This document shows positions 39,760 to 62,900 of a stretch of DNA of 64,000 nucleotides, in pieces (position 1 is the first letter of the stretch; every line of letters starts with the position of its first letter). The notes beneath the pieces were generated by a model, which was given only the letters and a program-made list of their open reading frames with translations, was not told the origin of the DNA and did not search any database. Position numbers and translations under genes: made by a program. Source of the stretch: Butyrivibrio sp. FCS014 (lineage in GTDB: Bacteria; Bacillota; Clostridia; Lachnospirales; Lachnospiraceae); the NCBI RefSeq assembly GCF_000526935.1, contig NZ_JAHA01000010.1, positions 1 to 64,000 of the forward strand. Reading direction: 5' to 3'.

Positions 39760-39839
39760 ACCCGGGGCGCGAGGCCAATGCGCCATTCCCCACGACGACC
39801 ACGAAACCAATCCACTATCCTATTAAGAGGGAAAAGAAA

Positions 39840-44320: not shown

Positions 44321-44333
44321 GATACTTCTCCCC

Positions 44334-44379
44334 AAAAAATAACGGAACTTTGCTACATACATCATAGCATAGTTCCGTT
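44334..44379 (-). terminator. Terminator between the companion-family gene and GH28
   Basis: AACGGAACT and AGTTCCGTT pair, with an inner TGCTA/TAGCA stem around 9 bases; the minus strand continues with ATTTTTTGG. It terminates the 173-residue gene upstream and lies just before the GH28 start. Confidence 0.75.
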
Positions 44380-44471: not shown

Positions 44472-44993
44472 TCACTGAGTATTTATGGAAGCGTCCATGT
44501 ACTTGATAAGCTCCAGAGCACTTCTGAAATCCTTTTTCTCATTCCGTTCCCGGAAGATGACGTGTCCCTGCCAGGTAGCATCCTGTCTGTATACCACCTG
44601 GACCACAAAGGTGGCAAGCTTGCCCTTCTTGTTCTGGACGTTACGGACTCCGTTCATGTCCTGAATGATCTCAATGGGAAGTCTGTCATCGTCAGCCTTC
44701 AGAGGATGAACCTTGCGGGCGTTATCTCTGTTCTCTTTCTTAAAGAAACGCTCAGCCAGTCCTCTTTGGGGAAAATCCCACTGGTCCATGAGGTCTTCCA
44801 TCTTAACAAGAAAATCAGTGGCACTGGTGAAATCTACAGGGGCATCAGCATACTGATGATACAATAATCCCGAAAAATCCCCGTCCTGAACCTGCTCTAC
44901 ACAAACGCAGACCAGATTTTTTGCAAAAAGCATCTGCTTGGTTTCTGCCATTTTGTCTTTAGTTTTCCTTCTGAGAAAATAATCGATAATCAT
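44472..44993 (-). CDS. Two-copy member of the small TWQG/FRSALELI family
   Basis: 173 residues if begun at 44993; an ATG at 44951 (MAETKQMLFAKN) is also possible because TATAAT lies only about 6 bases before the first ATG. No signal peptide or membrane segment. The C-terminal domain (LATFVVQVVYRQDATWQG, FRSALELIKYMDAS) matches the two small proteins encoded before the adhesins. The N-terminal half has the same pattern in weaker form (VCVCVEQVQDGDFSGLLYH, DFTSATDFLVKMEDLMD), so the protein is probably an internal duplication. It lies just after the terminator of adhesin A. I do not recognise a named family. Function unknown. Confidence 0.7.
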   Translation of the reverse strand: MIIDYFLRRKTKDKMAETKQMLFAKNLVCVCVEQVQDGDFSGLLYHQYADAPVDFTSATDFLVKMEDLMDQWDFPQRGLAERFFKKENRDNARKVHPLKADDDRLPIEIIQDMNGVRNVQNKKGKLATFVVQVVYRQDATWQGHVIFRERNEKKDFRSALELIKYMDASINTQ

Positions 44994-45055
44994 ATTAAAT
45001 TATACCGCTATTTCATCCGTCAGTACAGTGCATTTTGCCTCGGGAAAAGAGAAAA

Positions 45056-45083
45056 CGGCTGACCGGTAAACACCGGCCAGCCG
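45056..45083 (-). terminator. Terminator of adhesin A
   Basis: CGGCTG.CCGG and CCGG.CAGCCG pair around about 6 bases; TTTTCTCTTTTCCC follows on the minus strand. The stem resembles those after adhesins B and C. Confidence 0.85.
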
Positions 45084-45121
45084 CCCTTTTATTACTTATT
45101 CAGTTTGAAGTTACCTGTGTA

Positions 45122-48100
45122 TTACTGGTCTTCTTTTCTCTTGCCTTTAAGAAGAATTACTATTGCAGCTGCTGCGGAAAGGATGATAATCATCACTCTT
45201 GCTGCGCCGGATGTTGTCTCATCATCAGTTCTTCCTCTTCTTGCTCCGAGAACTGCTGCGCCATCTGTAGACTGCTCTCTTGTTGCTCCAAGTACTGCTC
45301 CGACAGGTGCTGCAGGTGCAGGTGTAGGAGCTGTAGGAGTAGGCTCATCTACGATAGGTGTAGGTGTAGGAGTAGGTGTAGGATCTCCACCGCCTCCGCC
45401 AGCGGCTGTGATAACCAGTTGACCGGGTACGTAGGTTACTTTGAAGTTACCCTGAAGCTCTTCGCCTGCGGCTGTGATAGGATATGTTCCTACATCGTTT
45501 CCACCTGTGCGGCTCAGTGTGTACTTGACAGTTTCTGCTGCTTCAGCATTAAGGTCAGTATTCTCGGCCTCTACCTTTGCTGTAAATGCAGGATCTGCCT
45601 GAGCTGTTGTCTTGCTCTTGTTGTCTGCTGTTACAGTTACAGGTGCGGGTGTGATCTCCAGTGAAGCTGTTCCTTTTGCTACTACCTTGAACTGATTGGA
45701 TACATCTTCTCCTTCAGCATCAGTTACTTTGAAGTTTGTAAGAGTTGCCTCATCCATGCTGAGTACGTATTCTCCTACATCCTTTGCTGTGCGATCAGCT
45801 ATTACCTCTGCATCTACTACTGCGTGATAGCTTCTTGCTCCATCTGAGTAGTCATCAGCTTTCTCTCTTGCATCAGACTTGATAGTGAACAGATCTGCTA
45901 CAAACTCTACTACGTTTTCAGCTGTCTCTCTGATGGCTCTTCCTGCTCTTGCAAAGATACCTTCGTCTGCTTCAGCTGCCTGACGTGCTGTCTGATCTAC
46001 TGCAACTGCAGTAGCATCAATTTCTGCTGCTTCAGTACCACCAACTTCCCAGCTGATAGTGTAATCGAAATCTGTCTTTTCCTGTCCGTCGTATACTATT
46101 GATCCACCGTCAAGAGGTGTTGCGTAGATGATAAACTTCTCATCATCAGGTCTGTCGTATACTGTCAGTGTTCCAAGGTTTTCTACCAAATTGTAGTTGC
46201 CTTCGTTTCCTGTTGTCCATGCCAGTGTGTATGTATTGGTTACTACATCAGGTCTTGTAACTGTTCCGGTTGTTGCAAAGTCTACGGTGTCGCCGCCTAC
46301 CAGTCCGGATATGCTACCTTCTGCTGTAAGAGGAGTTCCGTCATACTTCTTTCTGGCTGTAGGTGTTGTTACTGTAAGATCTCTCTTGAAGATGTTCAGA
46401 GGAACTGCCTCAAGAACAGCATCTTCGTAATTCTTGTTCTTAATTGTTACTGTTACGAATCCGATGCTCTCGGATACATTTTTGATAACAGGTGCTGAAG
46501 TTGCTTCTACTGTCTGTGCCTGGTCTGCAGTATCAACATATGTGAAGATGATCTCGTCCCCTGCAATCCTTCCGTCTTCAGAAACTGTTACAGTGTGGGT
46601 CTGTCCATCATAAGGTCCCTCGAAACCTGTAGCTGTAGGAACTTTACGATCCTTGGCGGGAGTGATGATGAGCTTACCATCCTCATCCAGAACTACTGTG
46701 ATGTTCTCGTAGTTAGGAGAAGTTGCCACAAAGTCTCCTGATACAAGATTCATCATGTATCCCTCTGCATTGGCATCTGTGCCCTCAGCATGTGCTGCCT
46801 TGCCTTCTGCAAGAGCAACGGTGATGGTTTCATCAACTGTTCCAACCTTCTCAAATCCGTCAATGGTCTTGAGTGTTCCGTCATATACTTCTGTTGCGGA
46901 ATTACCCTTTACATGTACGATCATCTCATCCTTGAAAGGATTGATCGTAAGGGTTCCGGGTGTTACATCAAATGTTACATCAAAGTTACCATTTGCCTCG
47001 TTGCTGTTTACAGCAAAGTCATCAGCTGTAACTTCCATTGTGTAAGTATCTGCGTTTGTTCCCTTAGCAGTAACTTTTGCGCCGTCCTGTGCAGGTCCGT
47101 TGTAGTAATCATCCAGATACAGATCTGAGCTTGCCTGTGCTGTATATCCGCTTACCGACTGCTCTTCTCCATTGTATTCAACAACATCGCTGTTTCCTGT
47201 GATGGTTACTGTTACAGGAAGTTTGTTAATCTGGAGCCATCCGTTAGTTACGGTAAAGGTTACATCGAAGTTGGCTTTATCGGTATTTACAAAGCTGTCT
47301 TCTGAGAGATTCATAGGATAAGCTTCCTGCCTTGCATTTGTTCCTGCTGCAATTGCTTCTTCCTGTGAAGGTCCTTCGAATGCTGTGTAAAGAGCTGTAG
47401 CATCCTTTCTCTCTCCGCCGTTTGTAAGCCATACACCATCAATGGTATAACCTGTTATGCTCTTAGGTGTTCCATCATAGGTTACTGTATCTGTATTACC
47501 GGTTACTTCTACTTCAATCTTTGCCTTCTCGATATTAAGTGTTCCGTTTACTATCTCGAAGCTTACTTCGAAGTTAGGATCTGAGTTGGAGAACAGGCCC
47601 TCTGCAAGAGTCATGTCGTACTTGCCAACTGCTGTTCCGGTTGCTATTGCTGCGCTCTGAGCAGGTCCTGTTACCTTATCCAGAGTGTACAGTCCGCTAT
47701 CATCGGTTATTATTTCCATTTCGTATCCGGTTACCGACTGAGGTGTTCCGTCATAGATAACGGTGTCGCTGTTACCGGTTACTCTTACTACGATGGAGCC
47801 TGCTGCAACGATATCAAGATATCCATCTACTACCACGAAGGTTACATCATAGTTAGGATTGATGTTTGTAAACTGTGACTCATCAAGTCCCAGGTAATAC
47901 TTTCCTACAGAGCCCTGAGTTACTTTAACGGATCCCTGTGAAGGTCCTTCATAATCAAGGGTTGCGCCTTTTGTTCTGTAAGCCCGGTCAGCAGGGACCT
48001 CTGAAAGAACATCTGCTTCATAACCTGAAACTGTATGAGGCTTTCCGTCAAATACTATCGGATCAGGATCTGATATATGTCCGGTAATCTGTACTGTTAT

Positions 48101-51100
48101 AGGTCTGGGCTTAACGATCAGCTTGCCGTAATTTACAGTATCGATGATGTAGTTATCTGCGTTTGTTCCGCTATCAAAGATGATTGCAGGATCGCCAACC
48201 TTGTTCTCGTAGTAGTGTGTATCACCTTCTACCAGATCATCTTCATCAATAACGTTGTACTTGATACCGCTGAGGCTTCCAAGCTTACCACCATCACCAG
48301 CTACCCATCCCTGAACAGCGCCTCGTGCATCGGCATCTGACAGTGTGCCTGATGTTGCAGGCTCAGGATAAGTTGTTATTACAGTAGGTGTTGTAACAGT
48401 AAGTTTCTTAGGAGTGATTGTAAGTCCGCCTTCTGCTACGTTGATGGTTACGTTTGCGAAGTTGTGTGCATATTCTTCTTTTACGAAGAAGTGTGCTGCA
48501 AGCTGCTGGTCAATTACATCTTTGCTTGTGATCTCAATATCACCTGTGTGTCCGATGTAATCTGCCTTGAATGCAGGATTGGTGATGCTTTCAATAGTGT
48601 ACTTAGCTGTGTGCGACTGTCCATCATATTCAATGTTGATATTATCTGCCGCGATATTTACTACTATGCCTTCAAGGGCTGTTACTGTAAGAGTTCCGCT
48701 CTTGTACTCTATAATGTAGTAGTCACTTCCGGACTGTCCTGTTGAAACCTGTGCTCCGAAAGGAGTGGTCTTGCTCTCGCCAACCTCAGTCTGGCTTCCC
48801 GTGAAGGAAAGGGCTGTGATCCTGTGACCATCTACAAGACCTTCTACATAATAGTCTTCTGCTGTAAAGGTACTTACAAGAGGTCTTCCGTCATAGGTCT
48901 TGGTCTTACCGTTCGCTCCGATAACGAGTTTCTTCTGATAGTATACAGTTCTTGTTATTGTTCCGCTGGTTGCTATAACCTTAGGAGAATCTACTATCTG
49001 TCCACTCTCGTCCTTGATATAGTTGAATACATAACCGCCAAGGCTTGTATTTATCGTGTACTGTCCGCCGGGCATCATGCTCTTTTCAACTGTATCTGCT
49101 ATGCTGTTGCCATCCATATCCACGAAGTTGACAACGATCTTACCCATCTTGTAATCGTGATAGTAGAATGTGATCACATTCTGAGTATCTGTGTATGTAA
49201 AGATATGGGTCTTAACTACTTCTTCAGGATAGTACTTTCTGTCTGCATAAGAAGCATATTCGGGAACGCTTCTCATGTAATCAGGATCAGCCTCAACTGC
49301 AGCTACTGTTACACTGGCCTGGCTGCCTGATAACGGCTCAGCAGGTGTATAGTCGGGAGCAACCCTGATCTCGTTGCCGCCATCCATGAAGATGTAACGT
49401 ACTGTGTAAGTAAGGTTCTCAGGCTTATGCTGGTAAACAAAGGTTACAACATTCTCGCCGTTAGTGAGGATAATCTCCTTTTCAGTTGCATCAGGAAGCA
49501 TTCCCACTACTGAGGCTGCCTTAACAACCTTTTTATCTCCGGGCTGGAACGCAGGGCTTCTCTCTGTTCTTGAAGGAGCTGCCTCCATTTCTTCCCCGTC
49601 TTCGTAGTATATAAATTTTACTGTATAGCTGATTTCGTCAGGAATCCAATAGGTGTATACCGATATGTCTTGTGTCAGAGGTTTATTGAAGTCATACTTC
49701 TCGCTGTAATCACTGTCGATATACCATCCACCAAAGGTAAATCCGTCGATCGCTGCAGGTGTTATTGATGATGCTGTTTTATTATGATCGTAGGCCTTGG
49801 TCTCAATAACTGTCTGCTGGCCTGTAACGGGGTCAACCTTGACAAAAGTGATGTGTCTTTGCGGTATGATCCAGTTAGCGTAGAGTACAAGACCTGTAGG
49901 CATCTTATTATCGCCTGCATATGCTTCTGAGTGGTAGGAATCAGTATACCATCCATCCCAGTCTGCATCGTCTGTAGGCGGTGTTGCTAAAGCCTCCGCA
50001 GCTGTGATTTTTCCACTGATGTCACTGCCAAGAGCAATCTGCTCTGTGCTGATAAGTGTACCGTCGTAATTGTTAAAGGTCAGAGGATAGGAATCTGCGA
50101 AGTAATAGAAATCAAATCTCAGGCCTTTATAGTTTTCTGTTGCCGTTCCACTATTGTAACTGCCTGTTCCAAGGGTAAAGGTTATATATTTGTTTATATC
50201 TTCCCATCCCAGGCCTTTTTTCTTCTGTGCAGCCCATGTAGTAAATTTATTCTTTGTATAACCTGCTATCTCCGGGAACTCGGAATAGTCATAACAATGT
50301 TTGAAATGTACTGTTGTGCTCTGGAATAAGCCGTACTTCTTGCCCTCAAAAGTAACCTGACCTGCTTCAGGGCCGTAGTTCTCCAGCCAGTAATTCAGTA
50401 TCTGTGTAGCATCAGTAGAAAAGTTATGTCTATAAAGCTTTATGGTCTTGCCATCTTCTATCCATGTAATACCGCTTTCACCCTTGCCGGGCATGGTGTT
50501 ATAGATAACGAACTTGTCTCTGTCTACGTTTGTAAAACTCCAGGCATATTCAGAAGAATATCCTTCATTGAAGATTCTACTGAAGGAATCCGTTATGTCA
50601 GAACCGTATTTGGCTTCCAGTGTGTTTCCATAAATACCACCTGATCCGGAATATTTGATCTTATAAACATTTCTGCTGTATTTTACAGTTATAGTGGTGC
50701 TGCCATCAGGCAAAACTGTTTTTTCATTAGATTCCTTAAATGTAAAGTTATCTAAATCAAGCTCAGCAGGCTTAGGGCTGCTTGCTGTTGCCTTAACAGA
50801 AGAACCAACCTGTGCTGTAGCTGTTGCTATACCAATATAAGAGTATTCTGTATCATTGGCATTTTCAATCGTGTAAACCAGTGTGTAATTTACTGTTGCA
50901 GGATCCCACTTGGCATAAAGAGTTGTATCTTTTTCCAGTTTATAGTTATCATCTGCGGCTGTAGTGAGGGCTTCATCTGTGTACCATCCGCCGAAGGTGT
51001 AACCTGCATATGTAGGCTCTTTTTCACTGATATCTATAACTGTCTCATAAGGAGCTGTAACCGCATCTACATATGAGCCGCCGTTTGAATCAAACTCAAG

Positions 51101-52477
51101 ACGATAGTTGGCACGTGTGTAGTAAACGGGAAGTTCCTGGCCTTCTACAGTTACAGTGTAGCTCTCGGTTCTCTCAAACTCACCACCGGGGATATCGATA
51201 ACCTTAGGTGTAACAACCGTATTCTTAACGCCTTGGGCCGGAATTGATTGAACCTTGGTATAATTACCGCCCTCCAAATCCTTGAGCAGATATGTATACC
51301 AGAAAGTAAACTCAAAAGGAATATACTGAACGCTTCTGTCATTCAGAATACCTACGATAACAGAACCTTCCTGTCTGGTATCCTTGATATCATCAAGGTC
51401 TGCAGTTGTGATCTGGATTGAGGTCTCCTTAGGATAGTAAACAGGGTATGCCTCATCCTCTGCAACCTGTACTTCCGGAGGAGAAGTGATGGTTACAGGG
51501 AGATTACTCTTTTCAACTTCTACTATCTGATTGTCAAAAGGCACCTCTGTGCCACCGGGACTGATATAGTAATACTTAACAGTCACCTCAAAGATCTTGA
51601 TCTCCTCAAGCTCTGCTTCAAGAACCATATCACCGGTTACCGTGTAATCAGAAGCATTGTCATGAGTTATGAGACTTCCGTTATAATTCCATCCTCTGAA
51701 GAAGTATCCTGCTTTGAAAGGATCCTGAGAAGGAATTGTAAGTGTTTCTCCACTTGAGAAGCCGCGGGTATCAAAATCAGATCCGTCAACCTTGAAAGAA
51801 ACTGTATAACCTGACTTCACGAAGTTTGCGTAGTATGTGGCTCCGTCAACAAGAAGTTCACCTGCGGGGCGGAATGTTCTTGACCCACAAACCACGGTGC
51901 TTCCATCTGTCCAGTTAACAAAGGCATAACCGGTATCAGCGTTAGCTCTGACTTCTGATGCTTCGCCGTCTTCCGGGATGGTATCAGAAGGTATGCTTAC
52001 GCTTCCGCCTTCGTTAGCAACGTATGAAATTGTTATGGTTTTTACAGGAGCAGGCGGAAGTTCTTCCTCTTCATCTTCGGGTTCTTCCTTTTTCTCCTCT
52101 TCAGGTTCTTCCTTTTTCTCCTCTTCAGGATCTTCCTTTTTCTCCTCTTCAGGATCCTCAGGAGAGCCTCCTGATTTTGAACCATCCGGAGGTAAAAGCT
52201 TCTGGTCTTCATCTGTAGGAGTATCTACCACAGGGGGATCACCTGCAGGAGGATCTTCTACAGGGGGATCTACTACAGGAGTCTCTACTGTAGGGGGATC
52301 TACTGTAGGGGGATCTACTACAGGGGGATCCGTATTAGGTTCATCACCAGAAGAATTCTCAGGAGCTCCTTCTGTTTCCGCATAAACCCTGATATTACTC
52401 ACGTTGGAGTTAAATGTGGTAGCTATCATGGCTATAGCGAGAAGTACTGCTAAAAATCTGTTCCATTTTCTCAACAT
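45122..52477 (-). CDS. Giant repeat adhesin A (InlB-type, MucBP-like and MBG/YDG repeats)
   Basis: 2,451-residue predicted surface protein; ATG follows GGGAGG. Signal peptide MLRKWNRFLAVLLAIAM to VYAE, then a Pro-rich part (DPPTVDPPTV repeats) and Glu/Lys/Pro tandem repeats. Residues about 170-1180 hold InlB B-type (Listeria-Bacteroides) repeats (AGYTFGGWYTDEALTT, TTLYAKWDP) and MucBP-like modules. Residues about 1190-2350 hold many MBG/YDG repeats of the form TGNSDTVIYDGTPQSVTGY. The C-terminus has a PTPTPTP linker, AVLGATRE, AAVLGARRGRT, a membrane helix and KGKRKEDQ. No catalytic domain is seen. Probable role: adhesion to plant matter or other cells. The companion gene lies 62 bases upstream. 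Confidence 0.85.
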   Translation of the reverse strand: MLRKWNRFLAVLLAIAMIATTFNSNVSNIRVYAETEGAPENSSGDEPNTDPPVVDPPTVDPPTVETPVVDPPVEDPPAGDPPVVDTPTDEDQKLLPPDGSKSGGSPEDPEEEKKEDPEEEKKEEPEEEKKEEPEDEEEELPPAPVKTITISYVANEGGSVSIPSDTIPEDGEASEVRANADTGYAFVNWTDGSTVVCGSRTFRPAGELLVDGATYYANFVKSGYTVSFKVDGSDFDTRGFSSGETLTIPSQDPFKAGYFFRGWNYNGSLITHDNASDYTVTGDMVLEAELEEIKIFEVTVKYYYISPGGTEVPFDNQIVEVEKSNLPVTITSPPEVQVAEDEAYPVYYPKETSIQITTADLDDIKDTRQEGSVIVGILNDRSVQYIPFEFTFWYTYLLKDLEGGNYTKVQSIPAQGVKNTVVTPKVIDIPGGEFERTESYTVTVEGQELPVYYTRANYRLEFDSNGGSYVDAVTAPYETVIDISEKEPTYAGYTFGGWYTDEALTTAADDNYKLEKDTTLYAKWDPATVNYTLVYTIENANDTEYSYIGIATATAQVGSSVKATASSPKPAELDLDNFTFKESNEKTVLPDGSTTITVKYSRNVYKIKYSGSGGIYGNTLEAKYGSDITDSFSRIFNEGYSSEYAWSFTNVDRDKFVIYNTMPGKGESGITWIEDGKTIKLYRHNFSTDATQILNYWLENYGPEAGQVTFEGKKYGLFQSTTVHFKHCYDYSEFPEIAGYTKNKFTTWAAQKKKGLGWEDINKYITFTLGTGSYNSGTATENYKGLRFDFYYFADSYPLTFNNYDGTLISTEQIALGSDISGKITAAEALATPPTDDADWDGWYTDSYHSEAYAGDNKMPTGLVLYANWIIPQRHITFVKVDPVTGQQTVIETKAYDHNKTASSITPAAIDGFTFGGWYIDSDYSEKYDFNKPLTQDISVYTYWIPDEISYTVKFIYYEDGEEMEAAPSRTERSPAFQPGDKKVVKAASVVGMLPDATEKEIILTNGENVVTFVYQHKPENLTYTVRYIFMDGGNEIRVAPDYTPAEPLSGSQASVTVAAVEADPDYMRSVPEYASYADRKYYPEEVVKTHIFTYTDTQNVITFYYHDYKMGKIVVNFVDMDGNSIADTVEKSMMPGGQYTINTSLGGYVFNYIKDESGQIVDSPKVIATSGTITRTVYYQKKLVIGANGKTKTYDGRPLVSTFTAEDYYVEGLVDGHRITALSFTGSQTEVGESKTTPFGAQVSTGQSGSDYYIIEYKSGTLTVTALEGIVVNIAADNINIEYDGQSHTAKYTIESITNPAFKADYIGHTGDIEITSKDVIDQQLAAHFFVKEEYAHNFANVTINVAEGGLTITPKKLTVTTPTVITTYPEPATSGTLSDADARGAVQGWVAGDGGKLGSLSGIKYNVIDEDDLVEGDTHYYENKVGDPAIIFDSGTNADNYIIDTVNYGKLIVKPRPITVQITGHISDPDPIVFDGKPHTVSGYEADVLSEVPADRAYRTKGATLDYEGPSQGSVKVTQGSVGKYYLGLDESQFTNINPNYDVTFVVVDGYLDIVAAGSIVVRVTGNSDTVIYDGTPQSVTGYEMEIITDDSGLYTLDKVTGPAQSAAIATGTAVGKYDMTLAEGLFSNSDPNFEVSFEIVNGTLNIEKAKIEVEVTGNTDTVTYDGTPKSITGYTIDGVWLTNGGERKDATALYTAFEGPSQEEAIAAGTNARQEAYPMNLSEDSFVNTDKANFDVTFTVTNGWLQINKLPVTVTITGNSDVVEYNGEEQSVSGYTAQASSDLYLDDYYNGPAQDGAKVTAKGTNADTYTMEVTADDFAVNSNEANGNFDVTFDVTPGTLTINPFKDEMIVHVKGNSATEVYDGTLKTIDGFEKVGTVDETITVALAEGKAAHAEGTDANAEGYMMNLVSGDFVATSPNYENITVVLDEDGKLIITPAKDRKVPTATGFEGPYDGQTHTVTVSEDGRIAGDEIIFTYVDTADQAQTVEATSAPVIKNVSESIGFVTVTIKNKNYEDAVLEAVPLNIFKRDLTVTTPTARKKYDGTPLTAEGSISGLVGGDTVDFATTGTVTRPDVVTNTYTLAWTTGNEGNYNLVENLGTLTVYDRPDDEKFIIYATPLDGGSIVYDGQEKTDFDYTISWEVGGTEAAEIDATAVAVDQTARQAAEADEGIFARAGRAIRETAENVVEFVADLFTIKSDAREKADDYSDGARSYHAVVDAEVIADRTAKDVGEYVLSMDEATLTNFKVTDAEGEDVSNQFKVVAKGTASLEITPAPVTVTADNKSKTTAQADPAFTAKVEAENTDLNAEAAETVKYTLSRTGGNDVGTYPITAAGEELQGNFKVTYVPGQLVITAAGGGGGDPTPTPTPTPIVDEPTPTAPTPAPAAPVGAVLGATREQSTDGAAVLGARRGRTDDETTSGAARVMIIILSAAAAIVILLKGKRKEDQ

Positions 52478-52539
52478 AGTCGAATTCCTCCCTTATAAAA
52501 GAATTGGCTTGTTAGAAGTTAATAGTTACGTGTGACTAC

Positions 52540-52767
52540 TTATCCTGCTTCTTCGTCACTTTTGTTCTTCGCCATGGTCTCGCCCATGGCACCGTCAATT
52601 AGTTTGATCAGTTCCAAAGCACTTCTGAAATGAAGTGTCTGCTCCCCTTCAGCCCAAGTCAGCTTACCCTGCCAGGTACCACCTTCGCAGCGGGCTATCT
52701 TGACGATGAAGGTTCCTCTGTCATTCAGTTTTTTCGGATAATCTTTTGAAAAATAACATTTTTTCAT
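52540..52767 (-). CDS. Small companion protein of adhesin A (TWQG/FRSALELI family)
   Basis: 75 residues from the ATG at 52767 (MKKCYFSKDYPKKL), which has AAAGGA upstream; a longer frame to 52803 is less likely. The core GTFIVKIARCEGGTWQG, then LTW, then FRSALELIKLIDGAM, is shared with 59204-59428 and 44472-44993. Predicted pattern: two or three beta strands, then an amphipathic helix. No signal or membrane segment, so it should be cytoplasmic although its partner is secreted. It is 62 bases before adhesin A on the same strand with no terminator between. Function unknown; it could be a chaperone, regulator or export factor. Confidence 0.75.
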   Translation of the reverse strand: MKKCYFSKDYPKKLNDRGTFIVKIARCEGGTWQGKLTWAEGEQTLHFRSALELIKLIDGAMGETMAKNKSDEEAG

Positions 52768-52819
52768 GGCGATGATATCCTTTCTTAAATTTATGATACT
52801 CAAACGTCAATCATACGAA

Positions 52820-52844
52820 TTATCATACGACCCCCTATATTTTG
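52820..52844 (-). promoter_or_regulatory. Motif shared by the two companion-adhesin operons (copy 1)
   Basis: On the minus strand: CAAAATAT, three bases, GGGT, two bases, TATGAT. The same layout occurs before the second companion gene at 59467-59491. TATGAT could be a -10 box. It is 53 bases before the companion start, followed by a second CGTATGAT copy. Confidence 0.5.
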
Positions 52845-52974
52845 TGGATTCAGCTTAACAATTCATAAATATAGTTAAGGAATAATGAAGACTGTAAATA
52901 TGAGATTAAGACTATAAAGAACTCATAAAGTAAACGTTTTAGGTAGATAGGTACAAAAATTATGATTGGGGGAA

Positions 52975-53011
52975 TAAAAAAGACGGGTAGTCGGTGTTAA
53001 CCGGCTACCCG
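52975..53011 (-). terminator. Terminator of adhesin B
   Basis: GCGGGTAGCCGGT pairs with ACCGACTACCCGT around a TTAAC-type loop; TCTTTTTTATT follows on the minus strand. Nearly identical to the terminator of adhesin C at 59874. Confidence 0.9.
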
Positions 53012-53051
53012 CCATCTTTTTTATTTCTTATTTGGGAAAAGAGCTATCGGC

Positions 53052-56000
53052 TCAAACCTCGTCTTCTTCCTTCTTTTTTCCCTTGAAAAGAAGTGCAATT
53101 GCAACTGCTGCTGAAACAATGATTGCAAAGATTCTTGCTGTTCCGGTAGCTGTGTCGTCTGCTGTTCTACCTCTTCTTGCACCGAGAACTGCAGGTCCGT
53201 CAACCTCAACCTCTCTCTGAGCTCCAAGTACTGCAGGTGCAGCTACAGGAGCAGGTGTGTCAGGTGTAGGTGTAGGTGTAGGAGGTGTAGGTGTAGGAGG
53301 ATTAGGTCCGGGTGCTGCTGTGATTGTGAACAATCCATTTACCAACTTAGGCTCATTATAGTTATTGGTTATCAATGTCATGCTCTCAAAGTCGATTCCT
53401 TCTGTATCATCTACTACCACTACATCGTCAGCCAATGCCTTAACCATCGGTCTGATAGGTTCCTGAGGCTCAAAGCTCTTAGGATCGATATGGATAACAT
53501 ATGTGCCAACGTCCTCACCTTTGTCACGATAAATTTCAGTGATCTCTTTGAGGAAAGCCTCTACATCAGCCTTTCTGGCAACGTCTTCACCTATAAGACC
53601 TGTAAGCTGTGCTGTAAGTGCAGGATCAGCTGTTCCCTGAACTTTACTCTTATCATCTGCGGTATATGTAAGATCAACCGGAGTGATATTGAACTTGCCC
53701 TTAAGACCCTCTTTATTAACAGTGAAACTCTTTGTTACATCAACATCATCAAGAGTGATTACAATATCCTTCTCAAGTTCGAAATCATAAGGAGGAATTC
53801 CGGCAGAACCTTCGGTAACATTTCTACCCTCTGCCTTAACCTTAATGTTCTTAACAACGTAGGTCTTGTTCTTGAACTCGAAGGTTGTCTGATCATCTGC
53901 TGCACCGGCTGTTATTGTCAATGCATCGCTGATGGCATCTAAAACTTTCTTATAAAGAGGTTCTTTAGGTCCTTCAACGGTGGCCAGCGCTTCGACAGTC
54001 TGCATATATCCGGTATAAGGCTTAGTAACATCGGTTACTGAAAATGCAATTTCAATTTCACCATTGCCGTTTTCAATGACAAGCTCACCATCTGTAACAT
54101 CTACGGTGCCAAGTACGAAGTTCATGTCCTTAGGATCAAGAGTAAACATAGCCTTCTTAAGTCCCATAGGATATGTGTCAGGAGTAAGGCCAGTAGCTAT
54201 AGCATCGTCTTCCTCATCAGCTGTGCCATTGCCATCGAAGTCAAAGATCACATCAGCTGTAGAGAAGTCAGGAGTATCAGCACCCTCAACCTCAACTACT
54301 TCTACCTCGTATGTCTCAAATCCGGTTACGCTCTGCTCTTCTCCATTGAATGTCTTAGTTTCCTTTTTACCGGCAACTGTAATGTTAACAGTTCTAGGTG
54401 TGATTGTAAGAAGACCATCAGCACGCACTTCAAATTCTACATCAGGGAATGTTGTTGTGTTAACTACTGCGAAGTCCTTTTTATCAAGTCCCATCGCATA
54501 TCCTTCGTCGTTAACATCTGTTCCCTTTGCAATAGCTGCTGCCTGAGCTTCATCACCGGTCTTTCCCTTATATGTGAAAGAAGCTGCAGTGAACAGGTCA
54601 TTGTTGGATGTAAACTCAAATCCGGTTACGCTCTGCTCTTTTCCGTTGTAAGGAAGCTCATCAGTCTTACCGGTAATTACTACTTTTACCTTACCTACAG
54701 GAAGGATTTCGAAGATACCGTCTTTGTTATTGCCTTCAGAATCCTTCGCAATCTTGAATTCATAGTCAAGGATGTCATCGTTGTTTAATACGAAATCTTC
54801 AGGTCCAAGATTAAACGGATACTCATCAACCTCTGTTCCTGATGCTCCAATACTCTGTCTGATGCTCACATCATCTTTTGAAATGATACCAGATACATCA
54901 TCGGCATCATACTTAATTGATGTTACCTTAAATCCAGGATCGTCATTTGTAGCGTCTTTAGGGAAGCTTACGCTCTGTTCCTGTCCGTTGTATGTCGTTG
55001 AGTAATAGTTACCTTCAACTGTGATTGTTGCCTTAACAGGCTTATAAACAACCTTAATAGTCTTATTCTTGCCGGCTTCGATTGTGGTGCTTGCAGGATC
55101 TACTACACCAGCCTTGTAACCCACGCCTGCTGTTTCACGATACTTATCAACATCGATATCGGCTGCAGTGATTTTTGTTCCGGCCTTAACACCTTCAACT
55201 GTTACAGGCTCACCAATCTTTACATCTGCTGCGCCGGAGCTTGCAGGGAATGACTTATAGTACTCAACTGTGTAAGAACCGTTAAGCTCTTTCCATACTG
55301 CGTAAAGTACATTTGTACTAGGATTATCATCAGAGTTCTTGTTGTTGGCAATGATGTACTCCTTGCCCAGAGCAATCTTAAATGTTCCTTCATTAGCTTC
55401 ATTCTGATCGATATTCCATCCAAGGAGCTCGAAGCCCTCTCTCTTGAAGTTGTTTTTCTCAGCTTCAGCAAGTGTCCAAGCCTGAATCTTCTCATTTACA
55501 CGAAGATCATGGTCACCATTCTTGCTGATCGTAACTGTCTTAGGTGAGGCACTTCCATCATTGATATTGTAGGTAAGTGTTGTCGTATCAGCAGCTGTGC
55601 CGCCGCCTGTCTTAGCGTAAAGAGCTCTAAGAACTACGTAATTTTCCTTCTCTCCATCTTCGCCAACTTCAGTTACTATGTAGCTGTCATCGAGGTCAAA
55701 GTGATCATTAGGATAATATGCTTTAACTACGTTTCTGTTCTTATCAAGAAGTTCCCATCCAATGAATGTAAACTTATCTGTTTCCACTGCTGTTGATCCT
55801 GCTGTTACAACAACAGTAGAATCAGTTGCATAGGTATGAGTGTCGCGGTTGGAATCAAGCATAGTACCTGCAACGTTCTCACGAGCTCCGGTATCCTTAT
55901 TCTTAATATAAGTACCATTCTCTTCGTACTTGATCTTTGTTCCGCCCTGCTTTCTCCACTTAGCGTAGAGGTTTACGTCAGATGTTACAGCGCCGTAGTC

Positions 56001-59000
56001 ATATGTCTTATCTGTTTCTTTTACAAACCATCCAACAAGATCATAACCGGAACGAACAAACTTGGTCATAACTGTGTCTCTGACAACCTTATCACCATAA
56101 TACAAATCAAGTGTTGTAGGCTGGCCATTTGTCTCAACAGTATTATAGCCTGTTGTTGTATCCATGTCCTTGTCGCCGTCAACGTTAAGATCAAAGTATA
56201 CTTTGTATTTTGGCTTTACCCAAACAATGTATGCTCGTGTGTCATTGGTTGCAGGCATCGTTGTATCGAAATCAAACAGCTCTGTTCCTGCTTCATCCTT
56301 CCAGATACCAATAGTTCCGTCTTCTGCAAGCTTAGGAACATAACCCGGAATAGGAGGAGTTTTTATTTTCTTGGCATCATTAATGGCCTTATCCTTGTAT
56401 GATGTAAGGCTTGACTCAAATAGGATATCTTTATATTCCTGAACAGTCTGTGCAGTATTTTCAGCAATAACTTTTTGAGTCTCAGGATCGATAGAAGCTG
56501 CCACGCTCATAAGTGTGAGCTTATACTTATTACGCTCATAACGGATGTATAAGTTTTCACTGAAAGGTACACTAGGATTGTTTCCGCCAGGAACATTCTG
56601 ATAGGAACCAGAATTTCCAACTCTATACGACTTTACTGTAAATCCATCATATTTATTTGAGAAATACCATGTATTGTTCCCAGAATTTCTTATATTTGTG
56701 CTATCAGTAGCCTCTGTAGGGTATGAGGAACCATCTTTATTCTGTTTATAATGCCTTACCTTAAGACTTCCACCTGCAGCCTCATAAGAATAGAAATCCT
56801 TATCTCCATCTGTAGAGAATTGAGCAAGGAAAGTCATTCCCTGGCCAAGTATTTCAATTTCTTCACCATAATAATAAGTAGATCCCTCGTATTCAAACCA
56901 CTCTCTTTCACTAGGCCAACGATAGCCATCATATTTAGAAATCGGCTGTCCATAAAGACCAGACATCTCCTTTAGCGAAGTATACTCTTTGGCATTCCAG
57001 ACATATCTGTTTGAGCCATATGAGGTATAATAATCTGCAGTATAGAACCTATATGTAATCTTCTTTCTGTCGTAGTAAACATTTACAACAGTATCGCCCT
57101 TTGCAGAAATCTTTCCGTCATTTGTGATTACTTTTTTAGGAGTTGCATTAAATCCTGTAAAGTTCTTGTTAAGAGCATTGCCAAGCCAACTATCCTTAAT
57201 AAGATCATCTGTAGCATGGCCTTCAATTACAGTCTGGCTATCATAGTCATAGTTCTTAGGGTCAAACGCTGCATTCTTATCTGTATCAACGTTCTGCTTC
57301 CAGATAATTACAGTAAAAGGAGCAGTACCCTTCGCCCACTTAGCATAGATGTATGTTGTCTTTATGATAGTTGTATTAAAATCGAACTCTTCTGTGCAGT
57401 TTTTATCTGCATACCAACCTCTAAAAACATAGCCATTTCTGGTAGGATTAGCAGGTCTAGTAGCCTTACCGCCTTCTACTACGAACTCAGGCCTTGTATA
57501 GGAAGCTCCGCCGCCATCTCCACCATCATTCTCATCAAAGTGAACCCAGTAACCTTTTTCAATGAATGCAGTAAGTGTACGGTTATTATCGTCACTTGCA
57601 TCGATTGTGGCACCATCTTTATAATACTTGTTATTTAAGTTTGTCCATCCTGTGAAGTTCTGTGTATCCTCCTTAGGCTGAACTGAAACTGTTAATGTAA
57701 GAGGAGCTTCATCCTCACTGCTGTCTGCTGTAACAGCCTCAACTGCAACTACCTCACCCTCTGCTCCGATAAAGGTAACATAGTAAGTAGTCTGAACCTT
57801 AGCTCTTACAGTGTACTTAGCCTCATTTGTCACATCACTCTTAACACCAAATTCAACCGGTTCTCCAAAGTCGTTTGCATCAGTATCCCAGAAATACCAT
57901 CCTTGGAATACCTGATTTTTGGTCAGTGAAGGAATCTCCGGACATGCAAGCTCGTCACCACTGGTAATGTCCTGCTCGGAAACTGTTTCCCAAACATCTG
58001 ATGAATTTTTTACTTCAAAGGTATAGTGCTCAACCTTACGAAGGATTTCATCGTCATTATCAGTTCCGGCAACAATGAATACTGAGAACTCGTTTGATGT
58101 AAAAGTTGCCTCAGTAGCATTACCTTCTGCATCCTGGCTGATGCTGGCGCCGATGGTCTCTACATCACCATGATCATGAACAACCGCAAAGTTGTCGCCC
58201 TCAAGAGCTGCTTTAAGTGTCATTGACACGTTAACATACTTGCTGTTCGCAGGCTGAATCTCTTTTCCGTCTACATCATGGAAAGTGATATCAACACCCT
58301 TAGCTGATGTTGCAGCAGGGATAGCTTCCTTAGCTGTAGCAAGTGCCTGGTCATCACCAATCTCTGTAATTGTAACTGTTGTGCCAGCGGGGAATATACC
58401 AGCCTCTGCACTAACAGTGACTTCCAGAGTGCTTGATGACAAAGAACCTGATACTTTAGGCATCAGCTCTTCAATATTATCAACAGCAACAAACTTAGCT
58501 GTGAAGGTAGCATCTTCTGTAAGACCAGCAGGAGTAAAGGTTGGCTCTGTGCAAACCTGAATACCGTCTGCGTCTACCCACTCTGTAAACTCATACTTGT
58601 CATTCCAAGCTGTAGCTGTAGAACCCTTGAAAGCAGCATCCTTGTCGTTTACGTTAATAGTCTCTGACTTATCAGAAACGTATCCGCCCTTGTCTGCTGT
58701 ATAGGTTACAGTTACATTCTTCTCTTCAGTTGCTTCTTCAGAAGCTTCCTCGTCCTCTTCTGCCTCTTCGGCATCCTCATCGGACACTTCATCTTCATCC
58801 TCTGCAGGCTCTTCCTCTGTAGGCTCAACTACTTCGGGAACCTCCTCAGGATTCTTCTCCCCCTCAGGAACAACCTCGGGTATCACCTCAGGTACAACCT
58901 TAGGCTCATCCTCTACTGCAGGAGGTGTAGTCTCCTCAGTAGTGGGTTCTGTGATCTCGGACCAAGTCTCTGTCTCTGTCTGTGTCTCAGCAGGGGCTTG

Positions 59001-59135
59001 TTCTTCGACAGTTATTGTTTCATCCGTGCCTTCTTCCGCATACGCCTTAGCACTGGCGAAATCACTACCGAAAGTTGTGATCACAAGTGCGATTGACAGC
59101 ATGAACGCAAGAATTCTGTTCCACTTCTTCAACAT
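53052..59135 (-). CDS. Giant repeat adhesin B (InlB-type and MBG/YDG repeats)
   Basis: 2,027 residues; ATG preceded by AGGGAG. Signal peptide MLKKWNRILAFMLSIALV to AYAE, closely similar to adhesin A. A Glu/Pro/Val-rich acidic stretch reaches about residue 145, then VTYTADKGGYVSD-type and InlB B-type repeats (NGYVFRGWYADKN, IYAKWAKG, YDLVGWFVKE, NLYAKWRK) to about 1370. MBG/YDG repeats follow (STTYNGQEQSVSF, ELPYNGKEQSVTGFE, TKTFNGEEQSVTGFE) to about 1930. The C-terminus has PTPTPPTPTPT, AVLGAQRE, AVLGARRGRT, a membrane helix and KGKKKEEDEV. It is clearly a paralogue of A and C. No enzymatic domain is seen. Confidence 0.85.
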   Translation of the reverse strand: MLKKWNRILAFMLSIALVITTFGSDFASAKAYAEEGTDETITVEEQAPAETQTETETWSEITEPTTEETTPPAVEDEPKVVPEVIPEVVPEGEKNPEEVPEVVEPTEEEPAEDEDEVSDEDAEEAEEDEEASEEATEEKNVTVTYTADKGGYVSDKSETINVNDKDAAFKGSTATAWNDKYEFTEWVDADGIQVCTEPTFTPAGLTEDATFTAKFVAVDNIEELMPKVSGSLSSSTLEVTVSAEAGIFPAGTTVTITEIGDDQALATAKEAIPAATSAKGVDITFHDVDGKEIQPANSKYVNVSMTLKAALEGDNFAVVHDHGDVETIGASISQDAEGNATEATFTSNEFSVFIVAGTDNDDEILRKVEHYTFEVKNSSDVWETVSEQDITSGDELACPEIPSLTKNQVFQGWYFWDTDANDFGEPVEFGVKSDVTNEAKYTVRAKVQTTYYVTFIGAEGEVVAVEAVTADSSEDEAPLTLTVSVQPKEDTQNFTGWTNLNNKYYKDGATIDASDDNNRTLTAFIEKGYWVHFDENDGGDGGGASYTRPEFVVEGGKATRPANPTRNGYVFRGWYADKNCTEEFDFNTTIIKTTYIYAKWAKGTAPFTVIIWKQNVDTDKNAAFDPKNYDYDSQTVIEGHATDDLIKDSWLGNALNKNFTGFNATPKKVITNDGKISAKGDTVVNVYYDRKKITYRFYTADYYTSYGSNRYVWNAKEYTSLKEMSGLYGQPISKYDGYRWPSEREWFEYEGSTYYYGEEIEILGQGMTFLAQFSTDGDKDFYSYEAAGGSLKVRHYKQNKDGSSYPTEATDSTNIRNSGNNTWYFSNKYDGFTVKSYRVGNSGSYQNVPGGNNPSVPFSENLYIRYERNKYKLTLMSVAASIDPETQKVIAENTAQTVQEYKDILFESSLTSYKDKAINDAKKIKTPPIPGYVPKLAEDGTIGIWKDEAGTELFDFDTTMPATNDTRAYIVWVKPKYKVYFDLNVDGDKDMDTTTGYNTVETNGQPTTLDLYYGDKVVRDTVMTKFVRSGYDLVGWFVKETDKTYDYGAVTSDVNLYAKWRKQGGTKIKYEENGTYIKNKDTGARENVAGTMLDSNRDTHTYATDSTVVVTAGSTAVETDKFTFIGWELLDKNRNVVKAYYPNDHFDLDDSYIVTEVGEDGEKENYVVLRALYAKTGGGTAADTTTLTYNINDGSASPKTVTISKNGDHDLRVNEKIQAWTLAEAEKNNFKREGFELLGWNIDQNEANEGTFKIALGKEYIIANNKNSDDNPSTNVLYAVWKELNGSYTVEYYKSFPASSGAADVKIGEPVTVEGVKAGTKITAADIDVDKYRETAGVGYKAGVVDPASTTIEAGKNKTIKVVYKPVKATITVEGNYYSTTYNGQEQSVSFPKDATNDDPGFKVTSIKYDADDVSGIISKDDVSIRQSIGASGTEVDEYPFNLGPEDFVLNNDDILDYEFKIAKDSEGNNKDGIFEILPVGKVKVVITGKTDELPYNGKEQSVTGFEFTSNNDLFTAASFTYKGKTGDEAQAAAIAKGTDVNDEGYAMGLDKKDFAVVNTTTFPDVEFEVRADGLLTITPRTVNITVAGKKETKTFNGEEQSVTGFETYEVEVVEVEGADTPDFSTADVIFDFDGNGTADEEDDAIATGLTPDTYPMGLKKAMFTLDPKDMNFVLGTVDVTDGELVIENGNGEIEIAFSVTDVTKPYTGYMQTVEALATVEGPKEPLYKKVLDAISDALTITAGAADDQTTFEFKNKTYVVKNIKVKAEGRNVTEGSAGIPPYDFELEKDIVITLDDVDVTKSFTVNKEGLKGKFNITPVDLTYTADDKSKVQGTADPALTAQLTGLIGEDVARKADVEAFLKEITEIYRDKGEDVGTYVIHIDPKSFEPQEPIRPMVKALADDVVVVDDTEGIDFESMTLITNNYNEPKLVNGLFTITAAPGPNPPTPTPPTPTPTPDTPAPVAAPAVLGAQREVEVDGPAVLGARRGRTADDTATGTARIFAIIVSAAVAIALLFKGKKKEEDEV

Positions 59136-59203
59136 ATCTTTCTCTCCCTCTCATATATTGTTAATATTGTTAAAAAATAATAACCAACTGTTACTGCAAC
59201 AGG

Positions 59204-59428
59204 TCATGCCTGCTGCTCAATAGATATCTGCTGTCCGGAAGCCATGGCTTCATCCATCAGCTTGACAAGTTCAAGCATGCTCCGGAACCGCTCTGTTCTA
59301 TTTTCTTCAGCCCAAACAACCTTGCCCTGCCATGTCTCGTTCTGACAATACTCAATCTTCACAACGAAAGTGCCTTTTCGGCGGCCGGGATCCGGATTGT
59401 TTGTGATGCTCAACGCTTTTCTACCCAT
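59204..59428 (-). CDS. Small companion protein of adhesin B (TWQG/FRSALELI family)
   Basis: 74 residues, MGRKALSITNNPDPG start with GAGAGGA upstream. The core GTFVVKIEYCQNETWQG, then VVWAEENRTERF, then RSMLELVKLMDEAM, aligns without gaps to the companion of adhesin A. Cytoplasmic by prediction. It lies 68 bases before adhesin B on the same strand, with no terminator between. Gene size, spacing and order repeat those at adhesin A, which supports a functional link. Function unknown. Confidence 0.75.
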   Translation of the reverse strand: MGRKALSITNNPDPGRRKGTFVVKIEYCQNETWQGKVVWAEENRTERFRSMLELVKLMDEAMASGQQISIEQQA

Positions 59429-59466
59429 AATAGTATCCTCTCGCTTTTATCATTGTAGAAAAAGAG

Positions 59467-59491
59467 TCATCATATCACCCATCATATTTTG
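59467..59491 (-). promoter_or_regulatory. Motif shared by the two companion-adhesin operons (copy 2)
   Basis: On the minus strand: CAAAATAT, three bases, GGGT, two bases, TATGAT, then GA. It is 39 bases before the companion start. Outside the motif the two upstream regions differ. Confidence 0.5.
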
Positions 59492-59941: not shown

Positions 59942-62900
59942 TTATGCCTCGTCCTCTTTCTTCTTTCCCTTGAACATAAGAGAGATTGCAACTGCTGCTG
60001 AAACAATGATTGCAAGCAATCTTGCTGCTGCATTTGTTGTCTCATCTGCTGTTCTTCCTCTTCTTGCTCCGAGTACTGCTGCGCCGTTGCCTTCAAGCTC
60101 TCTCTGTGCTCCCAGGACTGCGCCCGCAGGCATTGCTGCGAGAGGTGTAGGATCATCAGGGATAGGTGTAGGATCATTGCTAGGCACAGCTGTAATAGCA
60201 AGGCTTCCTTCACTAATCTCAATATCATAGTTGTTTAAGAAGAGTGCTTCATTATTAATGTACTTCTCTGCACTAAACTCGTATGCTATCTTGTTTACAA
60301 CAGCAGGGCCAACATCAGTTACAGATCCTGTCGCGCGAAGGTTTGTGATCTCTCCATCAACAAATCCACTGCCACTTACATGTACAGTAGGTTTTGTAAG
60401 CGGTGTTCCATCATAAGTCTTTGTTCCAGAATCAGATGTGAGTTTAACATCTCTCTTTGTTACAGTCATTGTTCCGATTGTGCTTGTACCTTCAAATCCC
60501 TCAGGTGTAACAATCTGAACATCAAACATCTTAGCAACATTCTCACCATTGAGTGTGATCTTCATTTCTGATGTATCAAGCTTGGTTTCATACAAGCCCG
60601 CATCAATTCCCGTCTCACTGATGATCTTTATGCCTGTAACATCAAAAGTAACAACATCATCACCATCGCCATATTTGATTGAATCATTGATCTTTGTTTC
60701 CTTGATACCCTTTTCAATCTGGAATGATTCTGTTTCAGGAGCAGCCTGATCACTGATATCTTCGTCAAGCGCATAAACTGTAAGTACTCCCAGATGTGCC
60801 ATTGTATGAAGGAATGATCTAATGATATCACCACTATCTTCTGTTGCTGTCTCAAGAACTGCAAGTTTTTCCTCAGCCTGATCTTCAACTACAGGATCAT
60901 CATATCCCGGAAGGTCAACACTATGTACCTTTTCATCGGTAATCTCATGTGAAAGAATTATCGAAACAGGAAGCTCGTGTTCAGCACCGTCATACATCAT
61001 AGAGTCAGTGTTCTTGCCGTTTCCATCAATGTCAAGTTTGACATAAAGTTTAAACTTGTCATCTCCCTCAAGCTCTGTCACTACAAGATCACCATCACGA
61101 AGATCAACATCGTAGTTCTCTGCATTGAAGGTTCCTTCCTTGAAGTTCCAGCTTGTGATAACGTTCTTACTGCTTCCGAAGAAGGTCTGTGAACCCTTTA
61201 CATATACTTCAAGTCCGCTAAACTCATCAACATCTGTGCCGTCATCTGTATACTTGGCAAAAGAGCCTTCCTCAATCTTATAAGAACTCTTAACAAGAGG
61301 AGTTCCATCAAACTTCTTGGTATCGTCAGAAGCACGAAGTGCTACAAAACGCTTGTTAATTTTAAGTGTTGCTACTGATCCTTCGTCGAGTGTGTACTGC
61401 TCAATTACTGACTTACCAGCACCATCAACAACATCAGCCTTAAGCATAAAGCTCTTGGATCCTGCATCTGTGATCGAAAGCTGATTTGAAGGAGTTCCCT
61501 CAACACCATCTACAACCTCAACATACTTAACATCGAGCGAATGGCCTTTCTTGACTTTACCTTCGATTACTGAATAAGATGCAACAAGTGGTGTTCCATC
61601 ATAAGTCTTTGCAAAGGACTGAGTGTCTACAGCAGCTGCTGCAAGCTTGATGACTGTCTTATCTTCATACACAGCTGTGTAAGTAGCATCCTTGAGAACT
61701 TCCATTGCGCCAAGGTCTGATGCAGTCCATTCTATGCCTTCCTCATCTACCCACTTTACAAAATACTGAGTGGATGGTGACTCAGGCCTAGCCATATCAA
61801 AGCCATCTCCAGCTGTAGGAGTGAGATCCCAGTGCTTTACATTAAATGTCTTTGTCTGATTTCCGTAGTCATTCTGCCAATCAAATGTCACAGTATGTTC
61901 TTTAATTGTAAAGTAGCCATAAAGATCAACATTATAATCAGGCATTGTGAACTGTACGTTATCCTCGTCCGCAACTTCCTGTCCAAGTATTTTTCTTACA
62001 TAATCCGCAATCTGTGTAAGAATTGGCTTCTCAGCATCCTGTGTCTCAACAGATGTATACCATCCCGTAAAGTCAAAGCCATCCGCAGTCGCTTTAGGAT
62101 TAACTTTTACTACTGCTCCATATTCATACTGCATTCTGGTCAATTCGCTCTGCGCAGGATTAGGAACCGCTCTTTCCGGTACACTTGTGTATGAATATGT
62201 TACATAGTACTTATTTCTTGTGTAGTAATAATCTACTACTGTTGTACCATCTGCTGCTATTGTTACCTCTTTGGCTGCAGGTGATGTAAATCCAGTAATC
62301 GTAAGAACTGCAGGGGTTACCTTTGCATCGGATGTTCCTGTAAGGCTATCTGTCTGATAGTTTTCATAGTTAGTATCATTTTCCGGTGTAGCAGATTTAT
62401 TAAGCTTCTGTGTCCAGTGCCTTACAACATATGCTGTGTCTGTCCTTGCTGTCCATGTTGCATAAAGAGTGAGATCAGCTGCATTTCCATACTCTGCATT
62501 CACTCCATAGGAAGCTCCGGTTCCATCCTTCTTTGTGTTCCAGCCTGCAAAGTCATATCCCTTCTTGGTAAATCCGTTATTTCTGATGTTTACCTTGCCA
62601 GGGTATGTGAATTCCTGGCTGGATGTTGATCCGCCTGTGTGTCCATTTCCCTCATACGTTACTGTATAGCTGATTCCCTTGTAGTAATAATCTACTACTG
62701 TTGTGCCATCTGCTGCTATTGTTACCTCTTTGGCTGCAGGTGATGTAAATCCAGTAATCGTAAGAACTGCAGGGGTTACCTTTGTATCGGATGTTCCTTT
62801 AAGGCTATCTGTCTTATAGATTCCATAGTTGGTATCGTTCTCTGGAGTTGATGGCCTTCCTGCCTTCTGTGTCCAGTGCCTTACAACATATGCTGTGTCT

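Follow-up and report, generated by a model that had tools for sequence, protein, structure and literature searches.

A family of small proteins in clostridial surface-protein operons and its tentative place in a SARP-like regulon

The window analysed here, the whole stretch of 64,000 nucleotides at positions 1 to 64,000 of contig NZ_JAHA01000010.1 of Butyrivibrio sp. FCS014, encodes small proteins, here called FAM, that accompany giant secreted adhesins. Computation lends good support to a regulon of surface-protein genes in Clostridia, with a control circuit that would be a variant of the SARP kind; FAM is tentatively assigned to this regulon, with somewhat less than even confidence, as a partner or feedback modulator of its regulator. 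The same computation establishes the family and its fold class, its position in operons, its co-occurrence with a regulator, a promoter architecture and an agreement between promoter repeats and the recognition helix of the regulator.

In the proposed mechanism a one-component activator composed of a winged helix, a BTAD and a degenerate GGDEF domain would bind two direct repeats lying 12 bp apart over the -35 region and would recruit RNA polymerase in the SARP manner. Behind such a promoter would follow FAM2, FAM1 or both, FAM often being the leading gene of the operon, then usually a large secreted protein, and some species would add SipW-dependent fibre proteins and their signal peptidase downstream. 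The likeliest task of FAM itself would be to assist or feed back on the activator in the cytosol, possibly by way of the BTAD or the GGDEF-like part of that protein, and single-domain copies would travel with duplicated adhesin units.

The FAM family and its neighbouring genes

The three small open reading frames (ORFs) of the preliminary description are all present on the minus strand: FAM2 (protein P0001; 44472..44993), a two-domain member of 173 residues recognised from its translation and a profile match, and the single-domain companions FAM1-A (52540..52767; 75 residues) and FAM1-B (59204..59428; 74 residues). Homologues inspected by eye suggest that the true start of FAM2 is at MAETKQ, near 44951, which would give a protein of about 159 residues. 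FAM1-A precedes by 62 bp adhesin A (45122..52477, minus strand), a giant secreted protein of 2451 residues with InlB/Flg_new and MBG repeats, and FAM1-B precedes by 68 bp the giant secreted adhesin B (53052..59135, minus strand; 2027 residues), the gaps running from the end of the small gene to the ATG of the adhesin and confirming the short spacing described before. A companion had also been predicted for adhesin C beyond position 64000; FAM1-C is indeed found there at 68619-68840, 64 bp before adhesin C, of which 59942..64000 (minus strand) is the part within the window and 59942-68554 of contig C10 the whole gene, of 2870 residues. Every giant of the cluster (adhesins A, B and C) has, in this way, one FAM1 companion.

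The elements T-F-x-V, TWQG and FRS-x-LEL-x-K-x-x-D, reported as common to the three small proteins, are invariant in their three-way alignment, and the view of FAM2 as a two-copy relative is borne out by an iterated profile that recovers its N-terminal half at E 6e-12. With a three-row profile and a limit of E 1, the 4.09 Mb genome yields four matches, whose E values run from 9e-28 to 1.4e-41; the similarity of the motifs exceeds chance. The family belongs to gut and rumen Clostridia; it is present in 22/100 genomes of the Lachnospiraceae and in 14/291 over the class, and TWQG and F-x-S-x-LEL are kept over many genera.

FAM1 consists of one beta-beta-beta-alpha domain and FAM2 of two, the AlphaFold2 model of FAM2 (mean pLDDT 83.3) displaying two such repeats; the model of FAM1-B has a mean pLDDT of 78.4. 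Foldseek returned no match at E 0.001 or below for either model, and among the matches listed those to the substrate domain of DnaK and to a dsRBD are at noise level. The HicB/UPF0150-like fold of PDB entry 2yzt, which we take to be HicB/UPF0150 and whose record itself says uncharacterized, matches at E 0.7, which is not significant; P0001-P0003 have no HicB-type match in Pfam or NCBIfam at E up to 1, and the type is absent both among 25 of the 35 families listed for 83 FAM members and from all 19 families matched by 88 members. Pfam matches of these members to Rdx (8/88), IDEAL (7) and PAE (6) are scattered, with a best E of 0.0085, and are attributed to chance.

The preliminary description knew of no name for the family, and this still holds: Pfam and NCBIfam contain no fitting model for any family protein of the window, no PHROGs match falls below E 0.1, PDB sequences searched by profile contain no credible relative, and searches covering the literature apart from most subscription journals found no paper on the family or the system by title. 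As far as Pfam, NCBIfam, PHROGs and these literature searches go, the small-protein family is unnamed. Apparent FAM fusions in ORFs of 288-450 residues (L097, L101 and L104 among the loci fetched from other genomes) look by eye like long-frame artefacts around divergent two-domain members. Carriage by phages or plasmids was also discarded, as none of 19 viral-contig stretches that matched a pattern encodes a relative and P0001 has no match in plasmids.

The proposed linkage of the family to genes for large surface proteins is well above the control: a large secreted protein is the next gene in 51/89 FAM clusters of the contig set against 15/723 control pairs, and in 12/29 clusters of an evenly drawn set against 12/265. 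For these counts adjacent family genes were merged into clusters, clusters at contig ends (2/91 and 2/31) were dropped and the controls were neighbour pairs from the same loci; gene calls follow a longest-ORF rule, secretion was predicted from hydrophobicity, and the large secreted class includes ORFs of 150 residues or more that are cut by a contig end. Out of 221 loci, the 80 that most resemble the two-domain protein were taken, near duplicates included. A scatter of homologues with no link to surface genes, envisaged beforehand as the contrary outcome, is not what is observed.

A frequent operon order is BTAD regulator, FAM2, sometimes FAM1, and a large secreted protein, and several FAM operons continue with apparent SipW-dependent fibre proteins and a SipW-like signal peptidase; family models bear this out for L110 and L097, and elsewhere it is a judgement by eye. 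The order FAM1-giant-FAM2 recurs in three further genomes of the genus of the window. Within their first 560 residues the proteins that follow FAM have no Pfam family in common; the most frequent ones (Flg_new, DUF7601, DUF5979 and VWA) each occur in 4/68. FAM relatives also lie beside a sortase (L049), beside PilT (L129 and, by eye, L141), beside a type IV pilus cluster (L114, by eye) and 686 bp from a RelA/SpoT-domain gene (L061); for some, no surface gene adjoins.

Partner regulator and promoter repeats

The regulator that accompanies FAM is a protein of about 410 residues with a winged helix, a BTAD and a C-terminal GGDEF-like domain. With Pfam at E 0.01, BTAD is recognised in 56/56 regulators, Trans_reg_C in 42/56 and GGDEF in 20/56, and the regulator of the window genome (C6:300245-301453) matches BTAD at E 1.8e-12. 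The GGDEF motif is degenerate, being mostly replaced by YSxxQ[FY]-like sequences, which suggests that the regulator is probably not a cyclase. Counting one genome per genus, the full-length regulator occurs in 21/22 genomes with FAM against 5/78 without it (Fisher 7e-16), the second figure becoming 7/78 when two partial regulators are counted; it is also found in 8/8 further genomes of the Butyrivibrio type. Complete regulator ORFs stand directly before a family gene in 50/73 cases, in loci fetched for the family, and 59/98 two-domain genes have a regulator within three genes on the same strand. The co-occurrence of BsaA with FAM at the level of genomes is weak (6/22 against 8/78; p 0.08).

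Outside Butyrivibrio, a word-free search of loci L044-L144 for hexamer repeats by period, with a -10 element behind, finds the combination at period 12 before 20/85 family genes, 4/422 other genes, 0/47 regulator genes and 2/37 genes after FAM. The next best period, 11, gives 6/85 family genes against 5/422 others, and period 13 gives none for family genes. When any exact period-12 repeat is accepted, it precedes 16/33 family genes that directly follow a regulator, 11/52 other family genes and 30/422 controls. The promoter type is kept at some FAM genes without a large secreted gene behind them (L094, and L129 beside PilT).

The repeat words vary by clade, and they follow the regulator: TAAC/TAAT-type words are accompanied by an L[RK] recognition helix in 7/7 loci against 0/10 loci with other words (Fisher 5e-5), the latter having asparagine at that helix position in 10/10 cases; 4/21 repeat loci (L080, L094, L111 and L119), with no regulator in the fetched stretch, were dropped from this comparison. 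Since the sequence of the repeat tracks the recognition helix, the regulator is the likely protein to bind the repeats; it would also activate the promoter.

The upstream motif said to be shared by the operons of the window takes in Butyrivibrio the form of a box, TATGAT-N6-TATGAT-N11-TAnnnT, whose repeat precedes all three FAM1 genes. On the minus strand, the direct-repeat box TATGATAATTCGTATGAT upstream of FAM1-A lies at 52810..52827, with the -10-like element TATCAT 11 bp after it (52793..52798), and the box TATGATGGGTGATATGAT upstream of FAM1-B at 59469..59486, with TACAAT at the same distance (59452..59457); the box of FAM1-C is at 68882-68899. TATGAT-N6-TATGAT has eight sites in the window genome, the gaps of 12 and 15 coming next with six each and the other 30 TATGAT gaps having a mean of 2.0 sites. 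This excess is weak alone, given that the pattern was first read off three of the eight sites, and the weight of the box rests on its context and on other genomes. Seven of the eight precede secreted-protein operons in the same orientation, namely three FAM1-adhesin units, three companion-less secreted genes (one 504 bp away) and one operon led by a protein of 116 residues.

Eight further genomes hold 86 exact box sites against 13 for a backward control pattern. Of these, 30 were available as loci and 29 could be classified, L238 yielding none, which makes 37 with the eight of the window genome and covering nine genomes: the window genome, three of its genus and five named Butyrivibrio records. 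The 37 were split into 26 promoter-type and 11 other sites before the -10 element was looked for; among the 26 are paralogous or near-identical promoters as well as one site that is 504 bp ahead of its gene. A -10-like hexamer stands exactly 11 bp after the box in 23/26 promoter-type sites and 10 bp after it in the other three, against 0/11 of the other sites. Eleven of the 26 boxes lead to FAM1, 13 directly to a secreted protein and two to a protein of 106-116 residues of another kind. A small protein with motifs that look PilZ-like by eye occupies the FAM1 slot between the TATGAT box and the secreted protein in L243 (15038-15388) and in L219; the PilZ identity of the 116-residue protein (L243 copy) is a guess by eye that Pfam did not show.

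Among regulators from genomes without FAM, 2/5 lie among SipW/TasA-like fibre genes as judged by eye, and these related BTAD regulators are located at L169:5166-6320 and L170:4840-6111.

Possible roles of FAM

The assignment of FAM as a modulator is favoured on three grounds: FAM is almost confined to genomes that have the regulator, the promoter type concentrates at FAM genes outside Butyrivibrio, and some FAM genes (L094, L129) keep the promoter without a large secreted gene. A more detailed version, rather doubtful at present, supposes that an activator with a dead GGDEF domain and a BTAD reads a nucleotide or another signal and binds clade-specific 12-bp repeats to switch on operons in which its FAM partner often comes first, and that this partner feeds back on it, coupling production of giant adhesins, SipW-dependent fibres or type IV pili to the cytosolic state.

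Several points weigh against the modulator assignment. That FAM would act on the regulator has less support than that the regulator binds the repeats and activates; moreover, the co-occurrence would look no different if FAM were a plain effector of the regulon instead of a feedback protein. The co-occurrence itself loosens to 22/22 against 24/78 when the regulator is taken at E 1e-15 with partial matches counted, and the regulator model, built from regulators near FAM genes, may miss others. In the window genome the regulator does not adjoin FAM but lies on a different contig, next to a cluster of ribosomal-protein genes; since in L061 the regulator and FAM2 stand together beside what appears to be the same cluster (gene identities by eye), we infer that the two once formed a pair that later came apart without loss of either. 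As for the promoter, the exact repeat with its -10 element is found at only 20 of the 85 family genes, and any exact period-12 repeat also precedes 10/47 regulator genes, where it could reflect autoregulation, and 7/37 genes after FAM; the agreement between helix and repeat words may reflect phylogeny. Near the regulators of FAM-less genomes (five loci, two with fibre-type genes) no exact period-12 repeat with a -10 element is found, which leaves room for a dependence of the box on FAM. In Butyrivibrio only 11/26 boxes lead to FAM1, so FAM is no constant part of the regulon there, and in the window genome no exact box precedes FAM2, which sits behind a terminator-like hairpin of 16 pairs (45052..45087, minus strand) between adhesin A and FAM2; this hairpin is only a consensus match of a pattern scan, whose 16 hits in the region compare with 10.5 +/- 3.2 in shuffled sequence.

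A serious rival, although unlikely, is a role in the biogenesis of the secreted products, in which FAM, as a chaperone, secretion pilot or translation helper, would bind nascent precursors of adhesins, fibres or pili in the cytosol. The gaps of 62, 68 and 64 bp that place FAM directly before a secreted gene, the single FAM1 per adhesin in the window locus, the excess of large secreted proteins as next genes in both sets and the recurrence of the FAM1-giant-FAM2 order in the genus all agree with such a role, which also gains, at the expense of the modulator assignment, from the small share of Butyrivibrio boxes led by FAM. However, the window genome encodes giants without FAM: a secreted protein of 1717 residues (C19:239557) that has the signal peptide of the adhesin type, the C-terminal tail and the promoter box; another of at least 7172 residues (C3:370485-392000 and beyond) with no FAM nearby and no TATGAT box in the stretch read; and a third of 1642 residues on C10, again with no FAM nearby. 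Protein length therefore does not call for a FAM companion, and the link of FAM is to the regulon. The lack of a common Pfam family among the following proteins, the location of FAM beside PilT, sortase or RelA/SpoT-domain genes or alone, and a co-occurrence that is with the regulator and only weakly with BsaA also speak against biogenesis.

The preliminary description had proposed a functional unit of small protein and adhesin, perhaps with a dedicated chaperone, translation regulator or export factor for very long repeat proteins. Its link to surface genes stands, whereas a dedicated chaperone or export factor for very long repeat proteins is not favoured, given the companion-free giants and the non-adhesin neighbours. 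An obligate chaperone for giants is likewise not favoured, since several of the giants have no companion and companions are also found next to pilus or sortase genes or on their own; the genetic linkage is compatible with a dedicated export chaperone, but the companion-free giants argue against its obligate use.

Two further roles are improbable. FAM could itself bind nucleic acid through its beta-beta-beta-alpha domain, either the 12-bp repeats of its own promoter or the adhesin mRNA leader, but its mean net charge is near zero or negative (-1.0 for FAM2, n 83; -0.6 for FAM1, n 21), the repeats go by sequence with the recognition helix of the regulator, and the fold matches are at noise level. 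Of much the same low probability is a receptor for a small ligand or second messenger that would signal to the regulator or the surface machinery, in analogy to PilZ: the C-terminal part of the partner regulator is a degenerate GGDEF-like domain, the two-domain proteins have invariant R-Q and W-Q-G residues, and in the window genome the protein of 116 residues that looks PilZ-like by eye takes the slot between box and secreted gene, but Pfam does not recognise that protein as PilZ, no ligand-binding family credibly matched FAM and the R of R-Q is not kept in FAM1. That FAM is a passenger, a short gene duplicating with adhesin units and having no role in them, is very improbable, as TWQG and F-x-S-x-LEL are conserved over many genera and FAM co-occurs in 21/22 genomes with a regulator that does not always adjoin it, even if FAM1-B and FAM1-C are close copies (69 percent identity), as duplication of the unit predicts.

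Relation to known systems and other features of the window

AfsS is a small protein, and the partner regulator of FAM resembles SARP (Streptomyces antibiotic regulatory protein) activators such as AfsR in combining a winged helix with a BTAD. SARP activators bind direct repeats over the -35 region that have a spacing of 11 or 22 bp, the 3' repeat lying 8 bp away from the -10 element (PMC10936776; see also PMC3367932), and AfsR works at the promoter of afsS, which is itself a regulator gene (PMC10936776). The promoters described here, from sequence alone, likewise have direct repeats over the -35 region at a fixed distance before the -10 element; this distance is 11 bp from the end of the six-base word, and less if the repeat exceeds six bases. 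The period of 12 differs from that of published SARPs and is a further point against the proposed mechanism; the repeats are therefore called SARP-like and are not filed as a classical SARP operator. The partner regulator differs also in having a C-terminal degenerate GGDEF domain instead of NOD/TPR, and the targets here are surface proteins in Clostridia.

A second likeness is to the sipW-bsaA matrix-fibre operons of Clostridium perfringens and to TasA of Bacillus, since the FAM operon of L110 carries a BsaA-family gene (TIGR04090) downstream and that of L097 a SipW-like signal peptidase I (TIGR02228), the narrower SipW model remaining below its cut-off. In contrast, the window genome has no TIGR04090 match at E 1e-5. 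To our knowledge, little is known of how commensal and rumen Clostridia time the production of giant adhesins and matrix fibres. The parts gained here are a regulator, a promoter rule for surface-protein genes that uses sequence only, and an unannotated family of small proteins; in Butyrivibrio the rule also picks out companion-less secreted-protein genes (13/26 promoter-type sites). If the proposed circuit is true, it would be a widespread and undescribed control system of the clostridial cell surface.

Adhesin C contains near-identical repeats with Flg_new domains, nine of which are strong matches spaced by 459 bp. Adhesins A, B and C and the protein of 1717 residues have in common a VLGARRGRTxD tail, followed by a transmembrane (TM) segment and a charged end (window 45122-45300, 53052-53250 and 59942-60150; L242:11317-11600); in adhesin A the TM segment is followed by a KGKRKEDQ tail. 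No LPXTG was seen by eye in these four proteins, and the tail with its TM segment and charged end could serve as an anchoring signal of an unusual kind.

The idea of a riboswitch in front of the adhesins was discarded, as Rfam at gathering scores gives in the window only one tRNA and the Clostridiales-1 sRNA RF01699 (26088-26242, minus strand; 103.8 bits). The window also contains pectin genes, which are an ORF of 2457 residues with a pectinesterase domain (4321-11694, minus strand), a further pectinesterase (39705-40901) and a GH28 gene (42746-44365). FAM2 adjoins pectin genes in several Butyrivibrio loci, the families being confirmed for the window and L037 only.

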